A stretch of DNA of 64,000 bases from Stigmatella aurantiaca (GTDB lineage Bacteria > Myxococcota > Myxococcia > Myxococcales > Myxococcaceae), in NCBI RefSeq assembly GCF_900109545.1, contig NZ_FOAP01000003.1, positions 248,001-312,000 of the forward strand, given 5' to 3'. Within the stretch, counting starts at the first letter, position 1. Every line of letters begins with the position of its first letter. The notes below the pieces were generated by a model. The model ran no database searches. It was not told the origin of the DNA and saw only the letters and a program-made list of their open reading frames with translations. Below are positions 1-2,693 of this stretch, one piece after another. The position numbers were made by a program, and so were the translations under genes.

Positions 1-1226
1 TGAGCTAGCGCAATTGCACACAATCGCGTTTCCGCGTTCCTGCCAGAAGACCACGACACGGCTGCCGACGGAAATTCTTCGACACTCAACGGGGCGACTG
101 TGCTTAACAAACGCTCAACTGAGTCAAACTCATTTGAATCAATCTGCGACTGCAGGTGATGAACATTAGCATCACTGCTGAGTGTATGCACCCTTGAAAG
201 AGCGCCACGCCAGACCCAACGAACCAACAAGGCCCGGGTGCGGGGATTCGGCCGTGGATGAAGATGAAAGAACCGGGCTAGCACCACCAACGGCAGCCGG
301 TAAGGCAATAATTGGGAGTGGAAAATACCGGCGTCCTCGGAGAGAAAGCCAATGGCAAGCCGAAGCGCATGTTCCGTGTGCTCTACAGCCTCTGGATGCC
401 CGCTTCCTGCATCCCCCTCTCTTCGCGTGAAGGTCTGCCTCAGGTCAAGGCCCTCCACAACCTTCAAGCAACGCAGGAACCAGTCATGAGAGATTTTACC
501 GAACCCAGTTTCCGCCTGAAGCCGTCCACAGGCACTCTCGATTGGACGAGGCTCTCTGCCAGCAAAAAGGGCCTCGAAAACTTCGCTTTCCTGCATGGCA
601 ACGCCGGATGTATTCACGCGCTTGAAAATAAGACGGAGCACATCCTGCTCAGCTCCCTCTACGATGTATGCAGGAATTTGGTACTCGCGCAGAGCCTTGC
701 CGAGCGCTATGGCTCGCTGTACCAAATCGGGACGACTACTCCGGAAAGGCCATGCGTTGAGCCAGTTGAGCAAGACGAAGGAGTCACCGACGACGTTGAC
801 GGGAATCCAATGAGGAGGAGGCTCCGACACTTGCAAGCGCTCGAAGCGCTCTACTTCCAAATCAAACCAGATAGCATGAATGTCTCCACGCGGGCTTGAA
901 TCCGGATGCAACATGGCCCCCGCGAGTGCGGTAACACGCTGCTGACCGTCCACAACGAAGTAAGCATCGGCCATATGAGGAGCACCGATACGAAGTGGTC
1001 CGAAATGAATGGTGCTCGGCTCAGCAGGCCCTTTGAACAACAGCAGGTCACCTACAGGGAATCCTCGGTAGACACTGTCGAAAAGGTCCAGGACATGCGC
1101 CGAGCGCCATTTCAGCGGACGCTGAAAGTCCGGAACACGGATCTTCCCGTCCTTCACGTGCTCAAGGAGCGTTTCCACCATGAAGGCACGTGCTTCCGGA
1201 CGGCGCTCAAGCCGAGTTTTCTCCAT
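1..1226 (-). CDS. DUF262 (GmrSD N-terminal-like) protein, 3' end cut by the window edge
   Basis: Reading the minus strand from ATG at 1226 gives 408 codons without a stop down to base 1, so the gene is real but its end lies outside the window. Residues 31-41 read VPDFQRPLKWR and residues 91-101 VVDGQQRVTAL, the two hallmark motifs of DUF262. The second is the ParB/sulfiredoxin-like nucleotide-binding DGQQR motif. RGFPVGDLLLF (54-64) between them is also typical. In GmrSD type IV restriction enzymes and several phage-defence proteins this domain hydrolyses NTP and regulates a partner nuclease domain, usually C-terminal; here that part is not visible. The frame stays open upstream of 1226 but has no better start, and no clear ribosome-binding site is seen. 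Base composition is visibly lower in GC than the next genes, suggesting horizontal acquisition. Identity as a DUF262 protein is firm; a defence role is inferred. Confidence 0.86.
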   Translation of the reverse strand, partial: MEKTRLERRPEARAFMVETLLEHVKDGKIRVPDFQRPLKWRSAHVLDLFDSVYRGFPVGDLLLFKGPAEPSTIHFGPLRIGAPHMADAYFVVDGQQRVTALAGAMLHPDSSPRGDIHAIWFDLEVERFERLQVSEPPPHWIPVNVVGDSFVLLNWLNAWPFRSSRPDLVQRAIALGKALREYQIPAYIVEGAEQDVLRLIFKRVNTSGVAMQESEVFEALFAGREPRPIESACGRLQAETGFGKISHDWFLRCLKVVEGLDLRQTFTRREGDAGSGHPEAVEHTEHALRLAIGFLSEDAGIFHSQLLPYRLPLVVLARFFHLHPRPNPRTRALLVRWVWRGALSRVHTLSSDANVHHLQSQIDSNEFDSVERLLSTVAPLSVEEFPSAAVSWSSGRNAETRLCAIALA

Positions 1227-1622
1227 GACAACAGGTGCTAACGCATGCCGGCCCAGCCGCGCAAGGCACAGTACGCCCCCATTTGCTCGCCTTGGAACCT
1301 GTCCCGGTAGGTGGCCTTTTCAGTTCCTCGCTCGGGTAGCAACCTGCCGGGGATGGCAGTTACCGAAACTGGCTCTTGTTGGAATCCCTGAGACCGGGCC
1401 GCAGCTTCTTTCATCCCGCCGAATGACCCGCCAGGGTGTACCAATGACTGAAGCCCCACCTGCTACAGGGAACCCCGACGTGACCACGAGTAGATACCGG
1501 GACTCGAACGAAAAGGTTCAGTTCCGGAAGTCACTGGAACGCAACCGCCGCAGCCCAAGGAGGCAGAATGATGCCAGCCACGGAGCCACAAAGCGCGCCT
1601 TGATTGGCGGTAACGTGAAGCC
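1227..1622. other. Intergenic stretch without a recognisable gene
   Basis: This 396-bp stretch separates the divergent DUF262 and BNR-propeller genes. The longest minus-strand frame, about 73 codons, has no recognisable motif. A piece at 1487-1512 resembles the T-loop of a tRNA read on the minus strand (TTCGAGTCCC), but no stem or acceptor pairing can be built around it. It presumably holds the promoters of both flanking genes; I could not identify convincing boxes. Confidence 0.4.
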
Positions 1623-2693
1623 ATGAGCCCCTTCCCTGACATCTACGTGGGCGCCACCCGCGGCCTCTTCGTGGCCCGGCACGTGAGTGGCCGCTACGTT
1701 CCCACGCCCCTGGGCCGCCTTCCGGTGGAGGGCGCGGCCCGGCACACCGCTTCCGCCCTGCAGTCCATGTTCCGTGGCAGTTCCGTGGGCGTCACCGCGG
1801 ACATGCCCAAGGGGGGCCTCATCGTGGACTCCCGGCGCCCAGGCCGGCTGTACGTGGGCACCGAGGCCGCGGGTGTCTTCCGCAGCGAGGACGGCGGCGC
1901 CACCTGGGTTCCCGACAGCCAGGGGCTCGGCTCCTCGCGGATCTGGTCCCTGGTCCAGCACCCCGTCACCGGCGTGCTGTACGCGGGCACCGAGCCTGCG
2001 GCCATTTACCGCAAGCTCCCGGACGCCACCGCCTGGGAGCCCTGCGCGCCCTTGTCGGCCCTGCCCCGGTACGGCGAGTGGACCTCGCCCAACGCGCCGT
2101 ATGAGCCCCGCGTGCGAGGCATTGGACTGGATCCCGAGCGGCCCCAGGCCATCGCCGCCGCCATCGAGGTGGGCTGGCTCGTGCTCAGCCTGGATGGGGG
2201 GAAGAGCTGGACGAACCTCACCGAGGGCTCGGAGTTCGACTCGCACTCCGTCCTCTTCGCGCCGGGCCAGCCCCACGTCCTGCTCTCGACGAGCGGGTAC
2301 GGCTTCTTCCGGAGTGACGACGGCGGCGCGCACTTCTCCGCCTCGAAGGCAGGGCTCGACCGGAGCTATCTGTCTCCCCTCGTCCTTCATCCGGCTCGCC
2401 CCCAGACGCTCTATGTCTTCGGGGCCCGGAGCGCCCCACCGTCCTGGTTCCACCGGGGCGCCGGTGCGGACGGTGCCTTCTTCCGCAGCGATGACCTGGG
2501 CCAGCGCTGGCGCCGCGTAGGAGACACTCCCGTCATCCCCGGGGGCAGTTGGACGGCGTGTGGCGATCCGCAGGCGCCAGAAACGTTTTGCGTTGGATTG
2601 ACGGACGGCTCCGTCTGGCTGACACAGGATGGCGGCGAACACTTCGCGTGTGTGCTCGAAGGGCTAGGGCTCGTCAGCGTGGTGTCAATCTGA
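1623..2693 (+). CDS. BNR/Asp-box beta-propeller protein (sortilin/exo-sialidase-like fold)
   Basis: A 356-residue protein with at least five Asp-box motifs of the form S-x-D-x-G-x-x-W: SEDGGATW, SLDGGKSW, SDDGGAHF, SDDLGQRW and TQDGGEHF. These sit at blade turns in sialidase, sortilin/VPS10 and photosystem-stability-factor-like propellers. The N-terminal MSPFPDIYVGATRGLF has no signal peptide, so it may be cytoplasmic. No catalytic sialidase arginine triad can be assigned, so hydrolase activity is not claimed. The gene stands alone; the terpene synthase starts 92 bp downstream on the same strand. The start ATG lies directly after GTGAAGCC, with only a weak ribosome-binding site. Fold is confident, function unknown. 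Confidence 0.8.
   Translation: MSPFPDIYVGATRGLFVARHVSGRYVPTPLGRLPVEGAARHTASALQSMFRGSSVGVTADMPKGGLIVDSRRPGRLYVGTEAAGVFRSEDGGATWVPDSQGLGSSRIWSLVQHPVTGVLYAGTEPAAIYRKLPDATAWEPCAPLSALPRYGEWTSPNAPYEPRVRGIGLDPERPQAIAAAIEVGWLVLSLDGGKSWTNLTEGSEFDSHSVLFAPGQPHVLLSTSGYGFFRSDDGGAHFSASKAGLDRSYLSPLVLHPARPQTLYVFGARSAPPSWFHRGAGADGAFFRSDDLGQRWRRVGDTPVIPGGSWTACGDPQAPETFCVGLTDGSVWLTQDGGEHFACVLEGLGLVSVVSI

Follow-up and report, generated by a model that had tools for sequence, protein, structure and literature searches.

The gene cut by the left edge of the stretch of Stigmatella aurantiaca DNA analysed here (the window; 64,000 nucleotides, G000:C3:248001-312000) is the first gene of a two-gene locus, in which a DUF262 protein is encoded ahead of a HipA-type kinase. 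DUF262 and hipA together are a mobile two-gene cassette, and the locus has the appearance of a hitherto undescribed bacterial module for defence or of the toxin-antitoxin type. In this module a DUF262 protein, related to restriction enzymes but lacking the nuclease residues, probably controls a kinase that stops growth. Its interpretation should shift from a type IV restriction gene to a DUF262-HipA cassette, a toxin-antitoxin or defence module built on a Hip kinase. The features of the two genes are given below; L005 is the stretch surrounding the window, and its positions equal window positions plus 15000.

L005:14613-16226, minus strand: whole DUF262/GmrSD_N gene, 537 aa; window 1..1226 holds its 5' 408 codons
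window 564..1175, minus strand: GmrSD_N domain (Pfam), residues 18-221
window 1116..1127, minus strand: FQRP motif, residues 34-37
window 936..950, minus strand: DGQQR NTPase motif, residues 93-97
L005:13414-14616, minus strand: hipA-type gene, 400 aa, GTG start, wholly outside the window, overlapping the DUF262 stop by 4 bp

The ORF listing gives a minus-strand frame of 408 codons (window 3..1226) with its ATG at 1226, which is open at the window edge. As the initial annotation had stated, this frame has no stop inside the window; it is the 5' part of an intact 537-aa gene, with no frameshift or stop just outside the window. The frame reads through in L005, and the gene ends 387 bases before window base 0 (stop codon L005:14613-14615). 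Both motifs from which a DUF262/GmrSD-like protein had been proposed, FQRP and DGQQR, are present, and Pfam GmrSD_N (DUF262) is matched with E = 7.6e-21 by the 408-codon fragment and E = 1.5e-20 by the full 537 aa. The value for the fragment places the DUF262 identity beyond chance. This gene is the only GmrSD_N match in the G000 genome, which has three HipA_C matches. The lower GC content noted earlier was confirmed, with values of 0.556 for the DUF262 gene and 0.55 for hipA against 0.696 for the window, and GC3 values of 0.58 and 0.53, respectively, against 0.92 and 0.86 in two flanking genes. This foreign composition, together with slot contents that differ between sister genomes, bears out the suggestion that the gene was acquired. 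A role in defence is likely. Against it speaks that the genes annotated around the pair in G000 have metabolic or unrelated functions and do not form a dense defence island.

The HNH/DUF1524 domain that had been expected beyond base 1 is absent. The full 537-aa protein has no Pfam match to DUF1524 or HNH, GmrSD_N being its sole domain, and HHxxP is found in none of the 53 HipA-linked DUF262 rows (51 distinct), compared to 15 of 25 full-length relatives without HipA; these aligned columns leave out the duplicates L037 and L039, the truncated L038, L041 and L068, and the short L109. A loose pattern match in the HipA-linked row L060 (QHLLS at residue 375) was rejected, as it is not HHxxP and is located before the HNH region. 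All 53 HipA-linked rows, from 51 distinct loci, retain the NTPase motif DG[QR][QH]R. An Asn of the former HNH region persists in 36 of the 51, as would be expected of a relic. With neither HNH/DUF1524 nor HHxxP found, the data lend no support to a restriction endonuclease of the GmrSD type. The earlier reading of an acquired, DUF262/GmrSD-like gene thus stands, but not as an HNH nuclease; the lack of HNH or of a partner gene had been named as speaking against it, and HNH is indeed lacking, but a consistently linked partner, HipA, is encoded just outside the window.

A structure model was calculated for the Corallococcus sicarius DUF262 protein, which is 68% identical to that of the window, from a 17-row alignment (pLDDT 77.4, pTM 0.57). 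This model resembles BrxU along its length (Foldseek 1.8e-11). In the VIA comparison with BrxU (PDB code 7p9m; Z = 15.7, 439 residues aligned, r.m.s.d. = 21.1), an r.m.s.d. of about 21 over about 440 residues means that the domain orientation of the superposition is not settled. A profile match to BrxU extends over positions 11-533; the underlying alignment includes HNH-bearing viral relatives, so this match is not independent proof for the HipA-linked proteins. The HipA model was poor (pLDDT 55.3) and was set aside.

The HipA protein carries the Pfam domains Couple_hipA (3.5e-15) at its N-terminus and HipA_C (4.3e-44). All 22 aligned HipA proteins have the same residues at ten positions: Ser132, Gly135, Gln137, Lys139, Lys164, Asp285, His287, Lys289, Asn290 and Asp308. 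Alignment with the solved HipA_C-domain chain 7ab4, which we take to be HipT, pairs the stretches around these residues. The names of the four kinase motifs are those used in the available text of PMC8262856. The 22 HipA rows (set A2) are a chosen subset, as are the 24 DUF262 rows of set A1 used below. No HTH gene of the HipB type lies beside the pair, the flanking ORFs being, by Pfam, GFO/MocA, a 148-aa ORF without match, and BNR. PADLOC returned partial PDC-M03A matches in up to 19 of the 22 HipA proteins and mad2 matches in two of them, neither of which was counted as membership. HipA is considerably longer (659-666 aa) in 15 loci of the C. sicarius genus:

L053:7663-9657 and L054:4205-6184, with 13 more loci of the C. 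sicarius genus: long HipA; in L053, a C-terminal methyltransferase domain in the same frame

The extension was scanned in L053 among these 15 loci and matches Methyltransf_25 (3.7e-14); L054 aligns with L053.

The two genes are linked reciprocally. A search of 96 genomes from the family listed 68 DUF262 matches at E <= 1e-10 and 47 HipA matches at E <= 1e-20. Among the 47 strongest DUF262 matches (E <= 1.4e-55), 46 have HipA on the same strand within 1.5 kb; the odd one, from Myxococcus vastator, reaches a contig end. The weaker DUF262 matches have HipA beside them in none of 21 cases. Conversely, DUF262 adjoins 46 of the 47 HipA matches. The exception, G094:C269, covers HipA residues 132-397; residues 6-164 are encoded where contig G094:C562 ends, so that G094:C269 most likely carries the second half of the same gene. 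In the phylum's other families, HipA accompanies four of five DUF262 matches. The 14-kb stretch retrieved around a truncated DUF262 gene in G152 contains no HipA, and the HipA of G106 is split over two ORFs. The junction between the two genes ranges from -4 to +19 bp in 47 non-plasmid pairs, with start codons picked by script.

A maximum-likelihood tree of 77 DUF262 rows placed the 52 HipA-linked rows, among them the cut M. vastator row with its partner unseen, on one side of a branch with 100/100 support. The tree omits the duplicates L037 and L039, the truncated L038 and L068, and the short L109 (430 aa), and 17 of its rows have long end branches. As it is unrooted, calling the HipA-linked rows one clade requires that the root be on the other side. 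DUF262 and HipA distances correlate with r = 0.93 over 49 pairs (L037, L039, L069 and L074 omitted), and equally over a thinned set of 22 (0 of 2000 permutations in either case), a correlation also expected from joint vertical descent. The pair is present in 16 of 16 genomes of the C. sicarius genus, and HipA in 13 of 27 of the Myxococcus genus, a distribution that would fit a housekeeping role as well. Of the DUF262 relatives found, those of C. sicarius (68%) and M. vastator (85% over 323 residues) are the closest; the DUF262 matches in G036, G037 and G040, from the window's own genus, are only 35-36% identical. Divergent DUF262 loci on the HipA-linked side of the tree occur together in G074 (three, one cut by a contig end), G002 (two) and G024 (two).

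Beyond the Myxococcota, with other phyla little searched, the pair was seen only on two Azospirillum plasmids, one of which is typed conjugative. A DUF262 match is present in 59 plasmid records; for five of them the surroundings were viewed, with HipA present in the two from Azospirillum and without a match in the stretches retrieved from the other three. Further plasmid DUF262 matches, among the matches listed, are 23-27% identical. A phage-borne origin was considered and rejected, five phage records holding only partial, distant DUF262 matches. HipA was found near the distant DUF262 matches of viral contigs in none of 25 fetched stretches (E 1e-4). Three viral contigs hold HipA; in the one that was read, L190, a 97-aa ORF upstream appears HTH-like from its letters.

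The mobility of the cassette is evident from comparison of insertion sites. In C. sicarius it occupies 2,973 bp, compared to 13 bp at the same place in G026, a cleanly empty site, and 73, 292 and 665 bp in three further genomes. It consists of HipA and DUF262 only, which leave about 75 and 85 bp free at its two ends. In G000 the pair lies in a slot between the GFO/MocA gene and the BNR gene, for which the following features were identified:

window 1623..2693, plus strand: BNR/sortilin-type gene, one border of the variable slot
window 1447..1548, plus strand: small-ORF remnant, 102 nt, 77% to the ORF after the G038 deaminase
window 1291..1377, no strand assigned: dispersed repeat, about 87 bp, upstream of DUF262, with copies elsewhere
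L150:2849-4351 (G038) and L151:10295-11779 (G036): deaminase in the slot of sister genomes
L152:16286-16573 (G037): remnant in the slot of a sister genome

The G038 slot, with flanks 97 and 93% identical, measures 1.9 kb and contains a 500-aa deaminase (PADLOC dCTPase, 3.7e-156) and a 60-aa ORF. The same kind of deaminase (PADLOC dCTPase, 4.2e-160) is present in the 9.4-kb slot of G036, and the 14.3-kb slot of G037 holds a 95-aa ORF that resembles a fused remnant of the deaminase and the small ORF; in G039 and G041 the GFO side alone was matched. As a 102-nt piece of the small ORF is left in the G000 slot and the sisters carry the deaminase, the DUF262-hipA pair appears to have replaced an earlier dCTPase-type gene. 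Deaminases of dCTP of this type act against phage, as the PADLOC label also implies. The stretch at window 1227-1622, first described as gene-poor, contains this remnant and the dispersed repeat. Copies of the repeat are found on G000 contigs C35, C7 and C6 and in G036-G038, and are 74-82% identical to each other. L005 has no Rfam match at gathering score.

For the function of the pair, analogy with the HipA-DUF3037 pair PDC-M66 and with DUF262 proteins that act in defence without DUF1524 suggests that DUF262 may restrain HipA and sense infection, a proposal that we hold with about equal belief and doubt. According to the available text of the respective papers, removal of HipA from PDC-M66 abolishes defence and removal of DUF3037 is toxic (PMC12548924), homologues of HipA act as kinase toxins that a partner keeps in check (PMC8262856), and DUF262 proteins without DUF1524 are required for protection in Menshen and Dazbog (PMC10952713) and have been proposed for defence in ptuXYZ (PMC11980606). 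By sequence, DUF262 is a BrxU/GmrSD-like NTPase whose C-terminal HNH nuclease is devoid of catalytic residues, and HipA a predicted Ser/Thr kinase with all catalytic motifs and an N-terminal lid domain, and no HipB adjoining. In the uninfected cell, DUF262 would keep HipA inactive, standing in for the HTH antitoxin HipB. Its NTPase/DNA-binding module might detect infection, upon which DUF262 would let HipA go; as with BrxU and SspE, the trigger could be DNA that is modified or foreign. The freed kinase could phosphorylate a host target, an aminoacyl-tRNA synthetase in the case of known HipA and HipT; growth would then stop, leaving the phage unable to multiply. However, the known DUF262 trigger, modified DNA, may not carry over. 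The wider scenario is one in which a type-IV-restriction DUF262 protein lost its nuclease and became a sensor or gate for HipA, translating invading and perhaps modified DNA into kinase-driven growth arrest, and in which the Corallococcus kinase gained a methyltransferase domain; we consider it plausible, if slightly more open to doubt than to belief.

The roles of the two proteins might also be reversed, with DUF262 as the effector, depleting nucleotides or blocking DNA, and HipA as its regulator, the NTPase or DNA binding of DUF262 being turned on or off by phosphorylation. The retention of DG..R in 53 of 53 rows, the BrxU-like model along its length and the hydrolysis or use of NTPs by SspE and BrxU, as given in the available text of PMC10952713, would fit such an arrangement. 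However, because the HNH residues are lost, no known destructive activity is left in DUF262, the kinase motifs of HipA are invariant in 22 of 22 proteins, and several HipA homologues are toxins (PMC8262856, available text), so that we regard a DUF262 effector as unlikely. It is rather improbable, too, that the pair serves addiction alone, stabilising DNA as a toxin-antitoxin module without acting against phage. The two-gene cassette, its occurrence on the two Azospirillum plasmids, one typed conjugative, the candidate antitoxin gene in first place in the operon and the toxin family of HipA all agree with addiction, but a BrxU-like protein of 537 aa would be a costly antitoxin, the G000 slot appears to have been exchanged with a dCTPase-type gene, and the C. 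sicarius genus retains copies in 16 of 16 genomes. A type IV restriction endonuclease that cleaves modified DNA in the manner of GmrSD, suggested by the GmrSD_N domain and the BrxU fold of the model, is disfavoured on sequence grounds and very improbable, as the full protein has no DUF1524 match and HHxxP is missing from 53 of 53 HipA-linked rows.

Control of HipA by a nuclease-less DUF262 protein would add an organization to those known for Hip kinase modules, and the pair is common in myxobacteria. To our knowledge, the phage defences of these bacteria have been little studied. Such control of HipA would also suggest a way in which a sensor of the restriction type, once its nuclease is lost, can come to act through a kinase toxin, and make testable a role of DUF262 domains without nuclease; that role, in PD-T4-2, Menshen and Dazbog, is left to future work in the available text of PMC10952713. 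No description of a DUF262-HipA pair was found in the literature searched, in which preprints were absent and subscription papers few, so that it could have been published elsewhere; the one paper found to contain both names has HipA only among its references. None of the ten Hip organizations in the defining survey (Gerdes 2021, PMC8262856), whose antitoxins are HTH, HipS, HipS-HIRAN, Stl-like, resolvase-like or none, accommodates DUF262, a term with no occurrence in the survey's available text. The survey may have passed over the pair, because according to that text it kept kinases with an adjacent putative antitoxin, in general DNA-binding.

The pair matches no complete PADLOC system among those tested. 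With the GmrSD/BrxU type IV restriction systems (DUF262 plus DUF1524) it shares the DUF262 domain, DGQQR and the fold of the C. sicarius model, but the HipA-linked rows lack the HNH catalytic residues and have a linked kinase gene. As in HipBA, HipA has Couple_hipA, HipA_C and intact motifs, and the toxin gene comes second in the operon; here, however, a 537-aa DUF262 protein takes the place of the HTH protein HipB. For two related HipA genes on plasmids, an HTH gene is annotated upstream. PDC-M66/DS-6 is likewise described, in the available text of PMC12548924, as a stand-alone two-gene defence system with a HipA kinase and a non-HipB partner, but the partner here is DUF262 (Pfam GmrSD_N only) and not DUF3037, and the PDC-M66 models returned no match at E 0.001 against the 22 HipA proteins. 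In Menshen, PD-T4-2 and Dazbog, DUF262 proteins without DUF1524 also belong to defence systems (PMC10952713, available text), but with other partners; no OLD-type nuclease gene was found beside the window's DUF262 gene, whose product has a weak NsnA match (5.5e-11). The putative ptuXYZ module (Gerdes 2025; PMC11980606, available text) also combines a DUF262 protein lacking DUF1524 with a toxin gene, but has three genes, including an ATPase and a BECR-fold RNase toxin.

PADLOC PDC-M55 comprises A, B and the DUF262 protein C, and the window's DUF262 protein matches PDC-M55C over residues 1-509 (9e-56), as do 24 of 24 rows of A1 at E 0.001. All three components occur together on the Paracoccus plasmid pYEE5, and the Paracoccus PDC-M55C protein (L104) likewise lacks HHxxP. 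A complete PDC-M55 was rejected for the window's locus, where the neighbours are by Pfam HipA, GFO/MocA and BNR, without A or B (PADLOC run: HipA and DUF262). Among relatives without HipA, L075:3614-7547 (G056) lines up an ATPase-like ORF, another ORF and DUF262 in a manner reminiscent of PDC-M55, the first two being judged by order, size and letters. On a Klebsiella pneumoniae plasmid (L103:2991-5584), DUF262 (PDC-M55C, 5e-82) follows a 338-aa protein with weak AbiP and AbiC matches, possibly another two-gene DUF262 pair.
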